A stretch of DNA of 64,000 nt from NCBI RefSeq assembly GCF_033100135.1, contig NZ_CP136920.1, forward strand, positions 1,984,001 through 2,048,000, read 5' to 3'. The DNA is from Rubellicoccus peritrichatus. Lineage in GTDB: Bacteria > Verrucomicrobiota > Verrucomicrobiia > Opitutales > Cerasicoccaceae. How positions within the stretch are numbered: position 1 is the first letter of the stretch; each line of letters begins with the position of its first letter. The notes beneath the pieces were generated by a model. That model was not told the DNA's origin and searched no databases. It saw nothing but the letters and a program-made list of their open reading frames with translations. The position numbers and the translations under genes are program-made. This document shows, piece after piece, positions 15,216 through 53,787 of this stretch.

Positions 15216-15758
15216 CTACTCGGCGACACTTTTTATCGCTACTTGTTCGTCCTTGTTATGTATTGCATAGACTGTCGTTAAAATATCCCGGTTTCTTGGA
15301 TTTCGGTATTCTTTCTGGAGAGTCATGCCCGCTTTCTCCGCCGTCCTTTTGGATTGATGGTGATTCTTCGGCATGTAGCTGCAGAGTTTCTTCAGTCCTA
15401 GTTTTTTGAAACCATACTCTACCATCGCGCGCGCTGCCTCTGGCGCCAGGCCCCGGCCCCAATGTTCTTTGCGGATTCTGTATCCCACCTCGAACTCCTC
15501 CTCTCCATCGATGCTCTGGATTGTTATTCCGCAGTCCCCGACATATTCGCCGGAGTGCTTATCTGTCACCGCGAACAGACCATAGCCTGAGGCTTCGAAT
15601 GTCCGGATGTTCTTTGCAATGATTTCGGCGACCTCTTCCCTGGTGTATGCTCTCGGGTAAAAGGACATCGTGTCAGGATCACCCAGGATGCTGAATTCAT
15701 CGTCGAGATCCTCCTCGCGAAATGGACGCAGAATCAGTCTTTCGGTTTCAATTTCCAT
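15216..15758 (-). CDS. GNAT N-acetyltransferase (RimJ/RimL-like)
   Basis: A 180-residue acetyltransferase. The N-terminus IETERLILRPFREEDLDD is the RimJ/RimL-type opening, EVGYRIRKEHWGRGLAPEAARAMV contains the acetyl-CoA pyrophosphate-binding loop, and SKRTAEKAGM is the usual C-terminal motif. The acceptor (protein N-terminus, antibiotic or metabolite) is not evident. It is the left-most small minus-strand gene of the cassette-like array. The flanking attC signal is poor here, so its membership is uncertain. Confidence 0.85.
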   Translation of the reverse strand: MEIETERLILRPFREEDLDDEFSILGDPDTMSFYPRAYTREEVAEIIAKNIRTFEASGYGLFAVTDKHSGEYVGDCGITIQSIDGEEEFEVGYRIRKEHWGRGLAPEAARAMVEYGFKKLGLKKLCSYMPKNHHQSKRTAEKAGMTLQKEYRNPRNRDILTTVYAIHNKDEQVAIKSVAE

Positions 15759-16012
15759 GATCTGGACGAATGTCGAAGTCAGGTGCGCTGTTAAGCGTTA
15801 CTTGGCTTCGTGCTCTTCGTGGCTTTTGTATTCTGTGAGGCAACGGATTTATTTTCTAGCAGAGACGCAAAGGTGCAAAAAGTTTAAGGTAATTCAAGCT
15901 TGGGGTCTTGGCGTCTTGAGCGAAGCGGGCGTGAGATTATTATTTTTCTTATCTAATGATTAGAGTGTGGCTCCCTGCGAAGTGCAGTAGGTTTTTTGCC
16001 AAATGACTTGTT
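15759..16012. other. Non-coding gap in the cassette array
   Basis: About 250 bases without a convincing gene. On the minus strand AAC-AAGTC-ATTTGGC follows the stop of the DUF6958 gene like the left half of an attC site, but no matching right half with GTT is seen. Nearer the GNAT gene TAACGCTTAACAGCGC also recalls cassette ends. I read it as one or two decayed recombination sites. Confidence 0.3.
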
Positions 16013-16315
16013 TTACCGAGTCGCATACCATCGAAGTGGCTTTGAGTCTGAATCGCGGACAATTAGTTTCTTTGCTTCGAGGTCCAGTTGAACCGTTTTT
16101 TGCCACCATCCAATCTTTTCACCATTTGGCCATAATGCTTGCGGAGCCAGTGGCTTCATTTTTTCGACCATCTCTTTTGCGGTTAGCCCTGGTGCCGTAG
16201 TCGGAGTGATTGATAAAATCAGTTTTCTCATGGCATCGTATTTAACGCTATCGACCCGGGAGGTTCTTCCCGGAGTGTTTATGTTTTCTATTTCCGTTTT
16301 AGCTGGCTTGCTCAT
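16013..16315 (-). CDS. DUF6958 family protein
   Basis: A 100-residue cytoplasmic protein of unknown function. It matches the DUF6958 pattern as I know it: IENINTPGRTSRVDSVKYDA, LTAKEMVEKMKP, LWPNGEKIGWWQKTVQLDLEAK and the C-terminal KPLRWYATR. Members are common as solitary small genes and in integron cassettes. A degenerate attC-like site separates it from the VOC gene upstream. Confidence 0.8.
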   Translation of the reverse strand: MSKPAKTEIENINTPGRTSRVDSVKYDAMRKLILSITPTTAPGLTAKEMVEKMKPLAPQALWPNGEKIGWWQKTVQLDLEAKKLIVRDSDSKPLRWYATR

Positions 16316-16327
16316 AAGGTTTTGTAG

Positions 16328-16376
16328 AAGGCCTAAAGTGCTGCGTAACGTTAGCCGCAGCCAGCACTGCCTTGTT
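16328..16376 (-). repeat. Degenerate attC-like site between VOC and DUF6958 genes
   Basis: On the minus strand AAC-AAGGC-AGTGCTG pairs with CAGCACT-TTAGG. The outer GTT box is replaced by CCT/CTT and no extrahelical base is present, so it would be a weak or dead site. It begins about 13 nt after the VOC stop codon. Confidence 0.4.
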
Positions 16377-16386
16377 CGGCTCGTCC

Positions 16387-16815
16387 TTAAAATTCAATGT
16401 TTCCTTTTTCGTCGAATATCGCATTGGGTGCCCAGGCGACTTCCCAATAATAACCGTCTGGATCAGAGAAGTAGCCGCTATGCCCGCCCCAGAATACATC
16501 TTGTGCTTGCTTCACAATTATGCCTCCAGACTTTTCTGCCAGGCTTAGCACTTCTGAAACCTTTTCTTTGCTTTGAACGTTGTGAGCTATAGTGATTCCG
16601 CAAAAGCCTGAAGTCTGAGGCTGAATCTCCGGTCCGATGTCCTCCGCTAATTTATCCAGCGGGTAGAGCGCCAGAGCGGTTCCGTTCAGGCCGAAGAAGG
16701 CGATATCGTCTCCTTCTTTAGCTTTGCTTTCAAAGCCAAGGCCATCGCGATAAAACCGTATTGACCGGCTCAAGTCTCGGACGCCAAGAGTTATAATATT
16801 GATTCTGGATTCCAT
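16387..16815 (-). CDS. VOC superfamily (glyoxalase/dioxygenase fold) protein
   Basis: A 142-residue metal-binding-fold protein made of two beta-alpha-beta-beta-beta units. NIITLGVRDLSRSIRFYRDGLGFE opens the first unit and FWGGHSGYFSDPDGYYWEVAW closes the second, where a family Glu ligand lies. Members include glyoxalase I, fosfomycin and bleomycin resistance proteins and dioxygenases; no feature picks one. One of two unrelated VOC genes in the array (the other is at 19061). Confidence 0.85.
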   Translation of the reverse strand: MESRINIITLGVRDLSRSIRFYRDGLGFESKAKEGDDIAFFGLNGTALALYPLDKLAEDIGPEIQPQTSGFCGITIAHNVQSKEKVSEVLSLAEKSGGIIVKQAQDVFWGGHSGYFSDPDGYYWEVAWAPNAIFDEKGNIEF

Positions 16816-16853
16816 CGTTTTTCGTTGAGTGTAAAGAGCAGCCTGAGTGCTGG

Positions 16854-17522
16854 CTATTTCGACTGGTTCGATCTGTTTAAGCCAATGAGCGCAATGATGC
16901 TTAGAGACAGTAGGAGGGTATAGTTGTTTGATTCTGGAATCGGTGTCGTCGAGAATAGAATGTTATCTAAGACTACCGCTGAACCGCTCCATTCTGGTCC
17001 ACTTTCCATTATTTTCAGTTCTCCTGTTGAGCCTTGATATGGAGTTAGGTCTCCGATCCTGAGATCGGCAGATCCTTCTGACATCAAAATTTCATTCCCA
17101 TCAAAGAACACTTGAAACTCTCCTTGTGCCAGGAGGCTTAGGCTTCGGGTTCCGACTGGAATCGTTCCTTCCTGGGCGATAAAGGCATGTCCGTAGACGA
17201 TTGGATCGGCAAAGAGATCAAAGTCTCCGCTGCGAAATGTTATCGAGTAATTTCCTTCTAGCGGAGCATCGGTAAAGTGCTGTGGGTTCGCAGTGTCTAA
17301 CAAGCTGTATGCTTGAGTGGTTCCGAGGTGTGATGAACCATAGTAAACTACAGAGGTGTCGTTTCCTTTGCTATGATTCCATCCGGGCACAGCGAGAGAC
17401 CAATCGAGAAAACCAAATGTTGGGTCGTTCGATACGACTGCAGCACTCTCGAAGTCCAGATTAGTGAATGCACTTGCTGTGCTTGCTAGTGCTATAGAAG
17501 CGAGTACGATTTCTTTTTTCAT
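16854..17522 (-). CDS. PEP-CTERM-type exported surface protein
   Basis: A 222-residue secreted protein. The N-terminal signal peptide is MKKEIVLASIALASTASA. A beta-rich domain starts at TNLDFESAAV and contains the PGWNHSKGNDTSV region. The C-terminus is a sorting signal of PEP-CTERM type: PIPESNNYTLLLSLSIIALI, then the basic tail NRSNQSK. Such tails are cleaved by an exosortase, which must be encoded elsewhere. The presence of this gene inside a cassette array is unusual. Ligand or role unknown. Confidence 0.85.
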   Translation of the reverse strand: MKKEIVLASIALASTASAFTNLDFESAAVVSNDPTFGFLDWSLAVPGWNHSKGNDTSVVYYGSSHLGTTQAYSLLDTANPQHFTDAPLEGNYSITFRSGDFDLFADPIVYGHAFIAQEGTIPVGTRSLSLLAQGEFQVFFDGNEILMSEGSADLRIGDLTPYQGSTGELKIMESGPEWSGSAVVLDNILFSTTPIPESNNYTLLLSLSIIALIGLNRSNQSK

Positions 17523-17533
17523 TTTTTGAGGCG

Positions 17534-17618
17534 AACTCCGTGCCGAGGCGCGAGGGTTTAGGATTTAGCAAACTTGTTTGCGTAGTGACAATCCCGAAGT
17601 AGCCTCAAGCAACTTGTT
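17534..17618 (-). repeat. attC-like recombination site
   Basis: Minus strand: AAC-AAGTT-GCT(T)GAGGC pairs with GCCTCGGC-ACGGA-GTT. There is one extrahelical T, one G-U pair and a tip hairpin GCAAAC/GTTTGC. It is strongly similar to the site at 18595-18672. A separate small stem GGCGC-TTC-GCGCC follows at 17622-17634. Confidence 0.65.
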
Positions 17619-17673
17619 GGGAGGCGCTTCGCGCCGAACCGAGCCCGTCCTAACGTAAAAGTGTGGCGCAGCT

Positions 17674-18585
17674 TTAGCTGTTGCCACCACTGCCTTCTTC
17701 ACTTTCTCGGTCTTGACGCACTATGTTTAAAATTTCTTCTGCACTCATTACATTTACAGTACAGGATTCATATTCTCCTTTATAATCAAAATGAACACGT
17801 GTGATAATGCCACAGAAATGGCCATCAATAGTTGCTACCGGACCGCCACTCATTCCAGATCTGGCAATCATGTTCGTCTTGAGTAAGTTTCGCCCATTCT
17901 CTCTTCTCTGAATAGAAATGAGCTTCCCTACGGCAAAATAATCTCCATTGCCCACACGATCTTCAAAACTCTGTCCGCTCCTTGTCCATGTAAGGCCACC
18001 AGCTGAGCTGCTAATAAGTAATGCTCCGTCGTCGGGTGCATCGACAATATCCTTGAAAAAGTCAGTTCTTGAGCGATCAAATTTCACAATAGAGAGATCA
18101 TTCTTCGGATCAAACCAAACGATCCTTCCTTCCAAATACGTATACTTATTGTCGAACTGCTTTTGCTCTTCTTGGTTAAGAATCAAATAACCCTTCTCTC
18201 TGATTGCAGCCTGAACTAACTTTGTGTATCGAGGGTCTTCTTCGTATACTTCTATGTAAAAAGGCGATTCATCCACAACATGGTACGCCGTAAGGTAATA
18301 CCCGTCCGAAGAAATAGCAGCGACTCGACCAATAGGATTTTGATTACTATTAGATATTTCTTTTTCCCCATCGCGAGGGGCATAAACCACATCTACCTTG
18401 GAATTTAGTATTTTGACTAATGCTTTCCTTTGGTCGGGATCAGGTATGAGTTCTTCGGCCTGGGACTTTTGAAGCTCTCTAATCTTGGCGTTTTCCGATA
18501 GATACAATTTGTGTGAATCCCTATCAGTGCTACATCCGGCAAAGAGTAACAAGCCAAGCAAATACACTATCAAGACTAACCTCAT
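17674..18585 (-). CDS. Trypsin-like serine protease, lipoprotein
   Basis: A 303-residue lipoprotein with a chymotrypsin-fold protease domain. The signal peptide ends in the lipobox LLFAGC, so the mature protein is lipid-anchored. The catalytic triad can be read: His in YYLTAYHVVDE, Asp in DPKNDLSIVKFD and Ser in ARSGMSGGPV. The spacing and the Asp motif resemble DegP/HtrA-type peptidases, but no PDZ domain is present and a charged insertion (about residues 115-155) separates His from Asp. The C-terminus is acidic and Ser/Gly rich. It may degrade or process envelope proteins; the target is unknown. Confidence 0.85.
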   Translation of the reverse strand: MRLVLIVYLLGLLLFAGCSTDRDSHKLYLSENAKIRELQKSQAEELIPDPDQRKALVKILNSKVDVVYAPRDGEKEISNSNQNPIGRVAAISSDGYYLTAYHVVDESPFYIEVYEEDPRYTKLVQAAIREKGYLILNQEEQKQFDNKYTYLEGRIVWFDPKNDLSIVKFDRSRTDFFKDIVDAPDDGALLISSSAGGLTWTRSGQSFEDRVGNGDYFAVGKLISIQRRENGRNLLKTNMIARSGMSGGPVATIDGHFCGIITRVHFDYKGEYESCTVNVMSAEEILNIVRQDRESEEGSGGNS

Positions 18586-18594
18586 ATTCTAGCG

Positions 18595-18672
18595 AACTCC
18601 GCGCTGAGGTATTGGAATGTAGCAAACTTGTTTGCGAAGTGACAATCCCGAAGTCGCCTCAAGCAACTTGTT
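18595..18672 (-). repeat. attC-like recombination site
   Basis: Minus strand: AAC-AAGTT-GCT(T)GAGG pairs with CCTCAGC-GCGGA-GTT. The seven L-box pairs are perfect with one extrahelical T after the third position, the layout that sets strand choice in known attC sites. The tip is GCAAAC/GTTTGC. It starts 25 nt after the TfoX-like stop codon. Confidence 0.7.
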
Positions 18673-18697
18673 GGGAGACGCTCCTTTAGCCGTTGAC

Positions 18698-18985
18698 TCA
18701 TTCGCTTGCTTTCTTTTTCAAGGCTTCTTTTTCCAAGTTGGAAAGGTCATCCCAATGAATGTCGCGTAGTGCTGCTTCAAATGAATACAGGTAGTAGCAG
18801 ACTGAAAGCGTCTTGTCTGGATAGTTATCCTTGATCCTTCGGTGAGCTTCGACGGCGCCCATGCTTCTTAAATCTTCTTCAGTATCGACGCCAATTTCAT
18901 GAAGGCGGCTTGCGATCAATGTCCCAATGTTTCTCAACTCAGAAACCCTCCGTGGCCGATTCATTGATTTTCCCTTTGTATTCAT
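18698..18985 (-). CDS. TfoX C-terminal domain protein
   Basis: A small protein consisting only of the helix-hairpin-helix-like C-terminal domain of TfoX/Sxy (PF04994 type): VSELRNIGTLIASRLHEIGV, EEDLRSMGAVEAHRRIKD, LYSFEAALRDIHWDDL. The competence-regulator N-terminal domain is absent, as in many stand-alone members. ATG 18964 (MNRPRRVSEL) is an alternative start that removes seven residues. Function unknown; helix-hairpin-helix domains often bind DNA or proteins. It is a cassette gene flanked by attC-like sites. Confidence 0.85.
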   Translation of the reverse strand: MNTKGKSMNRPRRVSELRNIGTLIASRLHEIGVDTEEDLRSMGAVEAHRRIKDNYPDKTLSVCYYLYSFEAALRDIHWDDLSNLEKEALKKKASE

Positions 18986-19001
18986 GGTTTGGGTTATCGT
19001 G

Positions 19002-19043
19002 AACGATAAGCTGAGGCAAAGAAGTAGGCGCAGCCAAGGTGTT
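19002..19043 (-). repeat. attC-like recombination site (short)
   Basis: Minus strand: AAC-ACCTT-G(G)CTGCGCC pairs with GCCTCAGC-TTATC-GTT, with two mismatches in the L box and a very short tip. Copies of GGTTATCG flank it at 18992 and 19043, so the true outer boxes could be slightly different. Confidence 0.5.
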
Positions 19044-19060
19044 GGTTATCGACCGGTTAG

Positions 19061-19498
19061 CTATTTATCAATAGGCCCATTTCCACAATTGGGTTCCCAC
19101 TGTTGAAACAAAATAACCATATTGTTTTCGTCTCTTACTCCAAATTCCCAAGCACCCCAAGGTCTAAGGTTTGGACCATCTTTAAATCTCGGATGAATAT
19201 GCTTTCCCTCTGTATCCCTGGCCATCATCTCTTCCCAAATACTTTTTATGTCATTTGTTTCTATTCTTACGATAGGGGCCGTCATTTCAAAACCATCCAC
19301 ATCGATTCCAACCCCATCGTTTTGTTCTAGATGAATTCTTATCGAATCCCTCTCCACGACAGCTAGAGTCGATTCCTCGTGAACAACTTTAAAGTTCAGC
19401 AAACCAGTAAAGAATTGTTTTGGAGCATCGAGTTTAGAGAATGGAATCGTGAAAACCGCTCTTATTAATGCATTTTCTCTCATAATTCTATTTTTCAA
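19061..19498 (-). CDS. VOC superfamily protein
   Basis: A 145-residue protein of the glyoxalase/dioxygenase fold. AVFTIPFSKLDAPKQFFTGLLNFKVV opens the first unit and GAWEFGVRDENNMVILFQQWE the second, where the last Glu-type ligand position lies in the strand. No catalytic set typical of glyoxalase I is complete, so it may be a non-enzymatic binder. It is unrelated to the VOC gene at 16387 beyond the fold. The ATG at 19480 (MRENAL) is an alternative start. Cassette gene. Confidence 0.75.
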   Translation of the reverse strand: MKNRIMRENALIRAVFTIPFSKLDAPKQFFTGLLNFKVVHEESTLAVVERDSIRIHLEQNDGVGIDVDGFEMTAPIVRIETNDIKSIWEEMMARDTEGKHIHPRFKDGPNLRPWGAWEFGVRDENNMVILFQQWEPNCGNGPIDK

Positions 19499-19537
19499 AT
19501 TTTTGCTAACATTGATTCCATCGTTTGGTTCTGCCTG

Positions 19538-19927
19538 TTAGTTTCCTTCAGGCAATTTGTCTTGGATGTATTTTTCGAATAGTGAATCGATGAATGGATC
19601 GGCTAACCCCAGTGCTATATTTTTTGCGATCAGGTCGAAATCGTCTGAGACGTAAGATGCGATTTCGTGCTGCTCTGTGGCTCTACTCGTAGCTAGAAAT
19701 GATTCTTTCCTGATCTCTTCTATTTTTTCTTTAGTTTCTTCGGAGAGGTTGGAGTCGGAAAATTTAGCTTCGATTCTCTTGTGGGAATCTATCCATTCTT
19801 TTTCAAAGCCTTCGTCTTCTCGGCGGTCTAGGATTCCGTCCAGATCTTTTGAGGCAAAACAATAGTCACTCAAGTAAGTCCTCTTAAGGATCGATTCTAG
19901 TATTGTATCAAGTTGTTTTATTTTCAT
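19538..19927 (-). CDS. Hypothetical small acidic helical protein (cassette gene)
   Basis: A 129-residue, highly charged, predicted helical protein with no signal peptide or membrane segment. It opens MKIKQLDTILESILKRTYL and carries a Glu/Lys-rich middle (SEETKEKIEEIRKESF). No family is recognised. Its ATG overlaps the stop of the gene upstream (ATGA), because the upstream frame reads through the attC-like site. The sequence after its own stop shows TAACAGGCAGAACC but no convincing attC. Confidence 0.6.
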   Translation of the reverse strand: MKIKQLDTILESILKRTYLSDYCFASKDLDGILDRREDEGFEKEWIDSHKRIEAKFSDSNLSEETKEKIEEIRKESFLATSRATEQHEIASYVSDDFDLIAKNIALGLADPFIDSLFEKYIQDKLPEGN

Positions 19928-20601
19928 TCTCGGAACGATGAGTGCTGGGACGGCGTTAGCCGTTCCTGGTCACGACTGGTTCTGATTTTGTTTTCATTAC
20001 GAATACCCTCGATACATCGGGTATACCATTCACCTTTATCTTCATTTAAAGCATCTTCGGAACGGAACCAATGCTCATACATTACATCACACTTGCAAGG
20101 AAGCCTTTCGTAATCCCAAGCACTATCCCAACTATGAATAATCCCATCGGTTAATTCAGCAGTAGCCGCAGCAAGAAACCCATAGGAAAGATTTATTATG
20201 GCAGGTTGGCCAGCAGAACGTCGAAAATCCCAATAGTGCCCAATCTCAAAACTCTTTTGTAGTTCTGGAAGCCTTTCTTTTATTCTTTCGTTTTCTTCGG
20301 ACTCCTCGGTCCAGCATTCAATGTCTGATTCTTCTATTGATTCACAGTAAGCATCAGTTCCCCCACAAATATCTTCATAGAAAAACCACACATAGCCTTC
20401 CCCTTTCCAATCAAAGAGGGCATCGCGGGCCAATTCCAATGACTTATGTTCAGAAGTCCTTACATCAAACACCATTTTTTCCGAAAAATTAATATCAAAC
20501 TCTTTAAGAAAAGAAACAATTCGAGGATACGCCAAATCTATCACTTCCCCAAAGGTTGGGATTCTTGGTGATGTCGGGTAAATCTCAAATTCAGTACTCA
20601 T
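19924..20601 (-). CDS. Hypothetical cassette protein
   Basis: About 225 residues from the ATG at 20601 (MSTEFEIYPTSPRIPTFG). The frame stays open up to 20673, but that extension only translates an attC-like site, so I reject it. The last 20 or so residues (SRDQERLTPSQHSSFRE) are likewise encoded by the next attC-like site. The core contains YVWFFYEDICGGTDAYC, a CWTEESEENERIKERLPEL charged segment and GQPAIINLSYGFLAAATAELTDG. No family is recognised. Soluble, acidic. Confidence 0.65.
   Translation of the reverse strand: MSTEFEIYPTSPRIPTFGEVIDLAYPRIVSFLKEFDINFSEKMVFDVRTSEHKSLELARDALFDWKGEGYVWFFYEDICGGTDAYCESIEESDIECWTEESEENERIKERLPELQKSFEIGHYWDFRRSAGQPAIINLSYGFLAAATAELTDGIIHSWDSAWDYERLPCKCDVMYEHWFRSEDALNEDKGEWYTRCIEGIRNENKIRTSRDQERLTPSQHSSFRE
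19934..19981 (-). repeat. attC-like recombination site
   Basis: Minus strand: AAC-CAGTC-GTG(A)CCAGGA pairs with TCCCAGCAC-TCATC-GTT; one extrahelical A, two mismatches, tip ACGGCTAACGCCGT. It uses the same spacers as the site at 20611-20668 and lies inside the 3' end of the upstream cassette frame. Confidence 0.65.
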
Positions 20602-20610
20602 TTTTTTCAG

Positions 20611-20668
20611 AACGATGAAGTGAGAGGGCCGAGGGCGTATGCCCGAAGGTTCTCTCAACTGACTGGTT
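20611..20668 (-). repeat. attC-like recombination site
   Basis: Minus strand: AAC-CAGTC-AGT(T)GAGAG pairs with CTCTCACT-TCATC-GTT, all L-box pairs perfect apart from the single extrahelical T. The tip carries GGGC-ATAC-GCCC. It begins within 10 nt of the stop of the small lipoprotein gene. Confidence 0.7.
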
Positions 20669-20672
20669 TTCA

Positions 20673-20981
20673 TTATTCAAGTTTTCTTAATTTGTAACTA
20701 AACCCTTTGTTTTTCAATATTTCTCTGACTCGCTCTACTTGGGTCCTTTTCCGTTCTCCTTCAACGAATATAATTACTTTTAATTCATTTGAGAGATCTT
20801 CAAGCTGATTCTCTAGAGTAAAACGTTTTTCATCCAGGTGATAGCCTTCCAATAAAATTCTGTCATCTTTCAGCACGAAAATATCAATTTTTTCATCTCC
20901 GTAAAAACCCTCTAAAGACTCATCTTCACGACATCCTAATTGAAAAAGAAGTATGAGAAAAATTACTATTTTAAGTTTCAT
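20673..20981 (-). CDS. Small putative lipoprotein (first cassette)
   Basis: A 102-residue protein with a signal peptide and lipobox (MKLKIVIFLILLFQLGC). The mature part is charged, with the segments KIDIFVLKDDRILLEG and VIIFVEGERKRTQVERVREI. The strand-helix pattern around an ILLEG motif is faintly like periplasmic ExbD/TolR domains, but I would not assign it. It is the gene nearest to the presumed promoter of the array (21018-21045). Confidence 0.6.
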   Translation of the reverse strand: MKLKIVIFLILLFQLGCREDESLEGFYGDEKIDIFVLKDDRILLEGYHLDEKRFTLENQLEDLSNELKVIIFVEGERKRTQVERVREILKNKGFSYKLRKLE

Positions 20982-21017
20982 TACTTTTTAGAGAACAAGT
21001 TATTAGTTCATTTCCGG

Positions 21018-21045
21018 ATAATATTCCAGTGTATCGGTAAGTAAA
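21018..21045 (-). promoter_or_regulatory. Candidate promoter driving the cassette array
   Basis: Minus strand -35 TTTACT (21040-21045), 16-nt spacer, -10 TATTAT (21018-21023), about 37 bases upstream of the first cassette gene. The -10 lies in one of two CGGATAATATTCCA repeats. Confidence 0.4.
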
Positions 21046-21223
21046 CAGGAAATTTCCTGATAAAGGGTGAGGCTTCTATGCGGATAATATTCCAATTGGA
21101 ATGATATCTGACTTTCCGGATATCATGACTCGGTTGTGCAGCGTTAATAGGTATTGACTGAATGAATGCTCATTCAAACTGATTATGTGACGAATGTTTG
21201 TTTGGTTATAAACCGCTTAATGG

Positions 21224-21288
21224 CGCTGAATTTTCGCTTAGAAAGAGTCACAGACTACATTTGCCTACCTTTAAGCGCAAATTCAGCG
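21224..21288. repeat. 17-bp inverted repeat with 31-nt loop
   Basis: Arms 21224-21240 and 21272-21288 (CGCTGAATTTTCGCTTA against its complement, one mismatch). There is no T-run after either arm, so it is not a typical terminator. It could be a decayed attC-like site or a small palindromic repeat. Confidence 0.5.
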
Positions 21289-21509
21289 GTGAAAAAAACT
21301 CAGTAAGATTAGCTCCCGGAGCGCGGCTCTCAATCCACATGCACAGTAGTATTGCAGTGTATCAGCTCAGTGCCCTCTGTGCCTCCTCCGTGAGCTCTGT
21401 GTCCAATCCATGATGTGTTAGGTATCGGCTCACGAGAAATTCCTTTTAATTCCGTGAATTCTGTCTGAAAATAGCAACACGTTCCGCTTTTCGGAATCCC
21501 TGTTACAAT

Positions 21510-22220
21510 ATGTCTGACACCGCACCATCCGACCCTAAGTCCCATGAATATTTTGATGTCTGGGATTTGTATGAGAAAATCATTTTGGAGAATTCGATGC
21601 GTCATCGGGAGGTGATTGATACGATTGGTCAATGGTCTCCCTATAAGCGTGCCGGGAAAACCCGCATACTCGATCTGGGGTGTGGCGACAGTTATGTCGT
21701 CAGTTGTGTGCATGACGGCGGTGATGATGTCGAATATACGGGTGTGGATTTATCGGAAGATGCCCTGGCCTTTGCGTGCAAGCGGTTGGAGAAAACCAAT
21801 TGGAAGCTCAACTTTATTCAGGCTGATATCTTGAAAGCCCTCGATGGATTCAAGGGGACCTTTGATTTGGTCATCGCCGGTTACGCGCTTCATCATTTGC
21901 TGGATGCCGAAAAAGAAATCGCGTTGAAAGGTATTCGGAAGTTGGTGGCCGAGGACGGCGCTTTCCTGATTTATGATATGATGCCGCGTGATGGCGAAGC
22001 ACGTGATCCTTATATCCGGCGTTTCGTTCACGATGTGGAAAATGTTTGGGGAGCGTTAGATGATCAACAGCGTCGTGAGACTCGGAAACACATCGAGGAA
22101 AATGATTTTCCCATCAGCCCCGGACAATGGATTGACTTGGCAAAAGATTGCAAATTCGACCGCCATGAATTACTTTATCGTGATGAAAATGCATTTTATG
22201 CTTTGATCGTTTTTGCGTAG
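21510..22220 (+). CDS. Class I SAM-dependent methyltransferase
   Basis: A 236-residue Rossmann-fold methyltransferase. The SAM-binding motif I is TRILDLGCGDSYV, the acidic end of strand 2 is YTGVDLSEDAL, and motifs II and III are TFDLVIAGYALHHL and LVAEDGAFLIYDM. The substrate cannot be inferred; the C-terminal part (DFPISPGQWIDLAKDCKF) resembles small-molecule or quinone-type methyltransferases. Divergent from the cassette array and not in an operon. Confidence 0.85.
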   Translation: MSDTAPSDPKSHEYFDVWDLYEKIILENSMRHREVIDTIGQWSPYKRAGKTRILDLGCGDSYVVSCVHDGGDDVEYTGVDLSEDALAFACKRLEKTNWKLNFIQADILKALDGFKGTFDLVIAGYALHHLLDAEKEIALKGIRKLVAEDGAFLIYDMMPRDGEARDPYIRRFVHDVENVWGALDDQQRRETRKHIEENDFPISPGQWIDLAKDCKFDRHELLYRDENAFYALIVFA

Positions 22221-53414: not shown

Positions 53415-53787
53415 GGGGGTGTTACGGATTCGACCCGGAGACGTAGGGCATGGTTGCAGGCCGGAGATGATGGTTGGCTCCGTTATCAATTCCATCACAC
53501 CTATAAATGGCGAAAATAAAATCGTCGAGTTCGCCCCACAAGGCGAACTTATGGCAGCTTAAGTCTGTCTCGTCTTGGCCTCCACACCTGCTAAAGGTTC
53601 AAGGCGTAAGCTAGCAGGCATAGCACTGGTCGGGTTAGCGGGCCAGTTGCCGTATCAAACAGGTAACTAGGGAGTGAGAAGCGTGTTTGTTCGCGCCTCA
53701 CCCCCGAAATCAAATAACAAACTATGTCTGTAGACGCTATGTTTAAAACCTCCGGACACGCGGGTTCGACTCCCGCCACCTCCACCA
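53415..53787 (+). ncRNA. ssrA: tmRNA (transfer-messenger RNA)
   Basis: Rescues stalled ribosomes by tagging unfinished proteins. The acceptor stem pairs GGGGGTG at the 5' end with CACCTCC before A-CCA at the 3' end, and the T-arm GGTTCGACTCC precedes it. The tag reading frame, 53509-53562, encodes (from the Gly resume codon) GENKIVEFAPQGELMAA and stop. The encoded CCA and intact 3' end show that the tmRNA gene is whole. It is the integration site for the island that follows. Confidence 0.95.
53509..53562 (+). other. tmRNA proteolysis-tag frame
   Basis: The codons GGC GAA AAT ... GCA GCT TAA encode a 17-residue tag ending in LMAA. The C-terminal AA is the usual determinant for ClpXP-type degradation. 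Resume codon GGC is inferred from the frame. Confidence 0.85.

Follow-up and report, generated by a model that had tools for sequence, protein, structure and literature searches.

Clusters of attC sites that lack an integron-integrase (IntI) are known as CALINs. By the default of IntegronFinder 2, a CALIN holds at least two attC sites, and the average is almost 6 attC each (PMC9024848). Three routes to such a cluster have been named, namely off-target insertion, intI loss and rearrangement, in a report that also lists the Verrucomicrobiota among the integron phyla (PMC8618304). Xanthomonas carries scattered CALINs, and intI is truncated or absent in most of its strains (PMC12444791), while gene-less (promoter) cassettes have been found in Vibrio and Treponema (PMC11014356; PMC6557892). 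Here we describe an array of gene cassettes in the verrucomicrobial bacterium Rubellicoccus peritrichatus, located on the minus strand at 16013-20981 of a 64,000-nucleotide window, the whole stretch of DNA that was analysed (1984001-2048000 of the 5.8-Mb genome, a single contig that is 97.5% complete). Our analysis showed that it is best read as a CALIN of about ten cassettes from an integron, of which nine contain an open reading frame (ORF) and one has none; it is now decaying, and its IntI has most likely been lost. We put the probability of this reading at roughly 0.93.

CALINs and the integrons of Verrucomicrobiota have already been described, and the array is ordinary in kind; its most unusual part is a repeated gene-free cassette. 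Compared with the CALINs as the available part of PMC9024848 presents them, this genome has six attC clusters, no IntI was found, and many of the sites have decayed. The attC sites are of the type that stands beside IntI in the family and the order (AAC-[AC]AG[GT]C.., with the extra base usually placed behind the third L pair), but unlike the integrons in the sections of PMC8618304 at hand, the array has no IntI, recognised attI or intI remnant. Its integrase-less attC clusters away from a platform resemble those of Xanthomonas, as far as these are set out in the portion of PMC12444791 available to us, although the phylum is distant and the Xanthomonas case rests on the comparison of strains, whereas the array here rests on one genome.

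The array consists of nine unrelated ORFs, tiled on the minus strand from 20981 to 16013, with an attC site or a relic of one at nearly every junction. This agrees with an earlier note, made from the sequence alone, which had recognised unrelated genes on one strand with attC-like sites between them and had suggested a check with attC covariance models. The sites were called with our own models in place of that of IntegronFinder, and the window was scanned at full length without filters. The models R1 (11 sites) and R2 (68 sites) were built from attC that neighbour the IntI genes of other order genomes, and R3 from 19 sites, of which 5 came from the same family and 14 from the other clusters of the R. 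peritrichatus genome, three poor sites included; none of the training sets contained a window site. The 11 sites of the first model were picked by eye among descriptor matches for 5- or 6-base spacers, and L037:4777-4844, which MAFFT had shifted, was left out. Pairing of the named helices was seen in 93.9% (A3) and 83.5% (A7) of the cells of the training alignments, counts that are partly circular because the descriptor demands paired arms and the extra base and A7 was fitted to the structure of the model; the covariation score of these alignments was reached by none of 500 shuffles.

All three models placed their best window matches in the array. R1 gave 16 matches up to E 10, with ranks 1, 2, 4 and 7 in the array, R2 gave 34, with ranks 1-4, 6, 8 and 28 (binomial P 2e-6 for the top 4), and R3 gave 16, with ranks 1-5, 9 and 11 (P 9e-8 for the top 5). 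Every array match of R1-R3 was on the minus strand, and the final ones of R2 and R3 (16810/16824-16872) were at background level. A strict descriptor (AAC, 5 bases, 3 bp, the extra base, a stem and GTT) matched 4 times on both strands of the 64 kb, and 2 of these matches were in the array (P 0.009).

The four box sets quoted in the earlier note, AGT[T], GTG[A] and twice GCT[T], with 5-nt spacers and outer AAC and GTT boxes, are all present in the sequence. The first is attC 1 (20607-20672, minus strand; TGAAAAC / CAGTC / AGT[T]GAGAG .. CTCTCACT / TCATC / GTTCTGA), which scored in the window 29.1 bits with R1 (E 3.7e-5), 28.5 bits with R2 (E 2.5e-5) and 31.4 bits with R3 (E 4.8e-6), and reached E 0.0023 in the R2 search of the whole genome. 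The second is attC 2 (19930-19985, minus strand; TCAGAAC / CAGTC / GTG[A] .. CAC / TCATC / GTTCCGA), with 16.4 bits by R2 and rank 3 of 34. The top-scoring site of the window, which that note did not contain, lies at 17648-17703 on the minus strand (AAGGC / AGTG[G]TGGC .. GCCACACT / TTTAC / GTTAGGA; R3 34.9 bits, E 5.6e-7; R2 18.8 bits). Its left box has decayed to AAG, and it is a 77% repeat of 16335-16377. The GCT[T] sites, both on the minus strand, are located at 17530-17622 (AAC-AAGTT-GCT[T]GAGG .. CCTCGGC-ACGGA-GTT; R2 15.4 bits, rank 4 of 34) and 18591-18676 (AAC-AAGTT-GCT[T]GAGG .. CCTCAGC-GCGGA-GTT; R2 11.4 bits, rank 6 of 34), and are better read as pieces of an ORF-less repeat, which we call element X and return to below.

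Folding of the bottom strands separated these sites further. In the minimum-energy fold of 19930-19985 (z -2.34), a 5+5 unpaired spacer lies between a 7-bp R stem and a 3-bp L stem, and one extra-helical base and a terminal stem are formed as well, so that the AAC/GTT R boxes, the L boxes, the unpaired spacer and the extra-helical base are all present. Of the four sites whose pattern had been taken as the hallmark of attC folding, the GTG[A] site alone combines the two boxes, the spacer left unpaired and the extra base in its minimum-energy fold. At 17648-17703 the minimum-energy fold showed the L stem and the extra base without the R stem (z -1.84). At 20607-20672 (z -1.65) it showed the inner stem only; the centroid had the extra base and two L pairs besides, and the R stem did not form. 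The bottom strands of the GCT[T] sites folded otherwise, with no attC fold at 17530-17622 or 18591-18676 (z -0.97 and -0.37). In addition, the R'' box of attC 2 (TCAGAAC) is the exact complement, at 7 of 7 positions, of the start of its own cassette, GTTCTGA at 20613-20607. The same own-start rule was observed in two IntI-bearing relatives, in which each of the 18 cassettes scored agrees with its own start at all 4 variable positions, and the matching over the 26 scored pairs exceeded all 10,000 shuffles; these 26 were taken from 38 neighbouring site pairs, 12 having been dropped for the lack of an exact AAC/GTT box or for a gap above 1.8 kb.

The other junctions carry fragments of attC on the minus strand. 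At 16342-16380 there is a relic whose centre has been deleted (GCCGAAC AAGGC AGTG .. AAC GTTACGC; R3 13.4 bits, E 0.35, rank 4 of 16), and at 16824-16872 a left half (TCGAAC CAGTC) that overlaps the end of ORF 7, with the right half unrecognisable and an R3 score of 8.8 bits, equal to background. A further left half, AACAAGTC, is located at 16000-16012, past the last ORF, at the end of the array. With both strands of the window counted, there are 13 instances of the left-half motif of attC, AAC[AC]AG[GT]C, and 5 of the 13 are in the array or one base beside it (20668, 19981, 16868, 16376 and 16012), all on the minus strand and none more than 60 nt away from an ORF stop. Looser forms were seen at two more ORF ends, AACAGGCA at 19539 and AACCGGTC at 19058. 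The remaining junctions look like decayed attC because these half-site motifs stand at ORF ends.

As stated in the earlier note, no IntI-like gene is nearby. In the whole 5.8-Mb genome the IntI model TIGR02249 found nothing over its cut-off of 265, nor any match at 1e-25, and the best stretch reached 82.7 bits. The top two places were taken by XerD (TIGR02225 354.9 bits, cut-off 329.6) and by a XerC-like protein, whose 294.2 bits fall short of the XerC cut-off of 335.15. As whole proteins they scored 146.8 and 119.4 bits, respectively, with the IntI model, and both lack the IntI-specific insert in the alignment. In that recombinase comparison the L038 row, also in the alignment, is a wrong ORF, and no result rests on it. 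An IntI protein of the sister genus, used as the query, retrieved the same two proteins, a 361-aa recombinase and short C-terminal pieces. No intI or attI remnant was recognised in the window or the genome, and intI adjoining attI, which would make a complete integron, was not found there. At least two attC sites with no IntI nearby make the array a CALIN, as had been proposed: 20607-20672 and 17648-17703 were supported by R3 and 19930-19985 by its fold, and models from the IntI-linked arrays of other genomes also confirmed attC here.

The genome contains six attC clusters in total, the window array and five others at 4456577-4461266, 1030191-1031269, 5424952-5429617, 293522-295948 and 3478222-3478840. 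In the genome and family searches, in which up to 150 candidates per genome were scored, R1 gave 7 matches and R2 12 in the R. peritrichatus genome at E <= 10, both including the 20607 site of the window. Below E 0.01, R1 and R2 together gave 5 sites, and below E 0.05 they gave 8, with the 20607 site in each set. R3 gave 18 matches, many of which are its own training sites, whose scores are not independent. The view that integrons are or were active in the lineage is supported by its relatives. IntI was found at E <= 1e-30 in 41 of 177 genomes of the order (38 over the cut-off) and at 1e-25 in 4 of 10 genomes of the family, all of one genus (3 over the cut-off), and attC arrays adjoin IntI genes in both. 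R2 matches at E <= 0.1 were present in 7 of 10 family genomes, and attC matches in the family occur on several contigs per genome; the 7 include three IntI-less ones, R. peritrichatus itself (G000), G039 and G117, the last two with 3 and 1 attC matches. Among the IntI genes seen, that of the sister-genus genome G069 (L021) has one in-frame TGA. G083 (L024, L061) has two complementary IntI pieces near contig ends, for which a split in the assembly is a likelier cause than a broken gene, and the order genome G035 (L028-L030) has three separate IntI genes over the cut-off.

These results suggest that an IntI tyrosine recombinase may once have inserted the cassettes at attC sites as folded single strands, and that its gene would later have been lost from the genome. 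No IntI gene was found in the present genome, and therefore it has most likely been lost; the cassettes would at present be immobile. Without the enzyme exchanging cassettes, attC sites would be expected to decay, and the sites could be ordered along such a course, with 20607 and 19930 seemingly intact, 17648 mutated in its left box, two being pieces of the gene-less repeat, and the rest half-sites or relics. Several observations weigh against this reading. No more than two of the window sites have a clear score by themselves, and 18591, 16342 and 16824 taken singly do not rise above background. In the other clusters of the genome the own-start rule holds weakly, with a mean of 1.9 of 4 (8 scored pairs) versus 1.0 for the next start. 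Relatives of DUF6958, the family of the last cassette gene, were found at 3 loci elsewhere, and none of the 3 has attC nearby at E <= 1. Finally, the short tyrosine-recombinase fragments at 1469720 and 4092035 resemble IntI and Xer about equally, and for this reason either might be an IntI relic. The background scores of several individual sites, together with a terminator-like scan of 15800-21510 that gave 9 hits against 6.3 expected, would fit hairpins that serve as ordinary terminators, or palindromes that arose by chance, between genes with no relation to each other. However, this explanation is hardly credible, since the top ranks cluster in the array under models that hold no window sequence, 19930-19985 has a textbook attC fold, and sites of the same type adjoin IntI in relatives.

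Within the CALIN reading, two origins of the array can be considered. It may never have been in a local integron platform, with an IntI elsewhere, resident or transient, seeding small clusters in trans at secondary sites. Six attC clusters in one genome, the spread of family attC over several contigs per genome, and the sites carried by the IntI-less G039 and G117 argue for such seeding, which we regard as a serious but tentative possibility; no secondary-site boundary was mapped, and a single old array that had been rearranged would look alike. Alternatively, the array could be the remnant of a resident chromosomal integron from which intI was deleted in place. The presence of IntI in one genus of the family and the in-frame TGA of the G069 gene are consistent with it, whereas the dispersed clusters and the lack of a recognised intI remnant in the window or genome speak against it, and we consider this origin possible with slightly more doubt.

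The cassette ORFs, all on the minus strand, are of mixed content. ORF 1 (20673-20981, 102 aa) is lipoprotein-like by eye, ORF 2 (19924-20601, 225 aa) runs through its own attC, and ORF 3 (19538-19927) encodes 129 aa; none of the three has a family match. ORF 4 (19061-19480) is weakly glyoxalase/bleomycin-resistance-like, with 20.5 bits against a cut-off of 20.6 when scanned as 19061-19498 and 20.1 bits, far below the cut-off, in another scan. ORF 5 (18698-18985) encodes a TfoX C-terminal domain (PF04994, 7.3e-20), ORF 6 (17674-18585) a trypsin-like peptidase (PF13365, 1.3e-9), ORF 7 (16854-17522) a 222-aa protein that is PEP-CTERM-like by eye and has no family match, ORF 8 (16387-16815) a glyoxalase-family protein (PF00903, 1.4e-15), and ORF 9 (16013-16315) a DUF6958 protein (PF22278, 2e-32). 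Shorter plus-strand ORFs overlap these cassette ORFs. The array is flanked on one side by an ORF on the plus strand at 21510, which by eye resembles a methyltransferase, and on the other side by a GNAT gene at 15216-15758; for one flanking gene, the 9 other family genomes gave no homologue at E <= 1e-20. The stretch 21015-21108, just upstream of the array, contains the direct repeat CGGATAATATTCCA twice, 66 nt apart, and a palindrome, possibly an operator or the boundary of the array. Rfam scanning of the window with gathering thresholds returned only transfer-messenger RNA (tmRNA), whose gene is at 53415-53787 with the tag GENKIVEFAPQGELMAA.

Element X is an ORF-less repeat of 171 bp, which a DNA search found in 12 copies in the R. 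peritrichatus genome and in no copy at E <= 0.01 in the 9 other family genomes. Both window copies, on the minus strand, are shortened on their left (5') side and lack one arm. The copy at 17530-17654 runs from GTTAGGACGG to GGAGTTCGCC and holds the GCT[T] site 17530-17622, and that at 18591-18682 directly follows the TfoX_C gene and holds the site 18591-18676; the two sites have a 77-nt stretch in common with 90% identity. An attC match lies within 1 kb of 10 of the 12 copies, and within 3 kb of the other two (291451 and 5422030). The four full-length copies (170-171 bp) start with GTTGGGACGG, at GTT; three of them (4459852, 5427649 and 5429374) are directly behind a modelled attC, and 5428839 is behind a sequence that no model called. 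They end with GCGCG(G/A)AGT(T/C), that is, with GTT or GTC, after which differing sequence and an ORF start follow. Element X is thereby bounded on both sides by attC crossovers, as a gene-less cassette would be, and its internal GTCCCAAC is the exact complement of its own start GTTGGGAC. Further loci are L053, L048 and L073. Among 372 sampled genomes of the order, at least five, R. peritrichatus included, match element X at E <= 0.001, a lower bound as two candidates were scored per genome, and three of the four others match over 25-57 bp only. In G205, an IntI-bearing genome of another family, a relative with 83% identity over 129 bp (L077:1491-1662) starts 10 bp past the GTT of the attC match L077:1424-1496. 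Exact-pattern scans of genome and viral contig collections, from which the R. peritrichatus genome may itself be absent, gave nothing.

Element X is most likely a multi-copy gene-less cassette. Like the gene-less cassettes of Vibrio and Treponema, as the available parts of PMC11014356 and PMC6557892 portray them, it is an ORF-less unit in cassette arrays upstream of other cassettes; unlike them, it forms one 171-bp family with 12 copies in a single genome and has arms without an unpaired central spacer. Among the titles listed on ORF-less or gene-less cassettes, on attC with miniature inverted repeats, and on integrons in Verrucomicrobia or Opitutales and their relatives, none concerned a multi-copy gene-less cassette of this kind or CALINs of this lineage. 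A more detailed account, plausible but still conjectural, is that element X is almost all attC with near-perfect palindromic arms and was spread by IntI through the arrays of one genome, where it reached 12 copies or more, either as a selfish rider of integrons or as a portable leader that serves the gene following it, until the loss of IntI stranded it. Its 14-bp arms, AACTCCGCGCTGAG and CTCAGCGCGGAGTT, pair continuously in the folds without the unpaired central spacer typical of attC, and full pairing of the spacer in a Vibrio attC site reduced bottom-strand recombination 27-fold in the experiments covered by the accessible part of PMC2727003. These arms would suit a small element with inverted repeats that has attC sites as its targets and is not a cassette; this is less likely, because the left edge of element X coincides with the GTT at which attC sites cross over, and the complementarity of GTCCCAAC to the start is cassette-like. 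Covariation in the arms was not significant (118 of 500 shuffles).

The idea of a promoter cassette was tried and set aside. A 40-bp core of element X seemed more conserved over the 12 copies (0.94 versus 0.72 and 0.79), which the truncated left edges explain; in the four full-length copies 7 of its 40 columns vary against 33 of 171 overall, so that it is no more conserved than the rest. The promoter-like scan of the array gave 9 hits against 8.5 expected, one of them inside element X at 18645-18616, and that of a full-length copy gave none on the element X strand. These tests do not support a promoter function of element X.

The array provides an example of cassette arrays without an integrase, and of how they decay, in a lineage of the Verrucomicrobiota; since IntI persists in the sister genus, its loss can be traced. 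Should element X prove to be a true cassette, it would mean that integrons can carry a repeated, non-coding passenger with an attC that has no unpaired spacer, a feature regarded as essential for efficient recombination.

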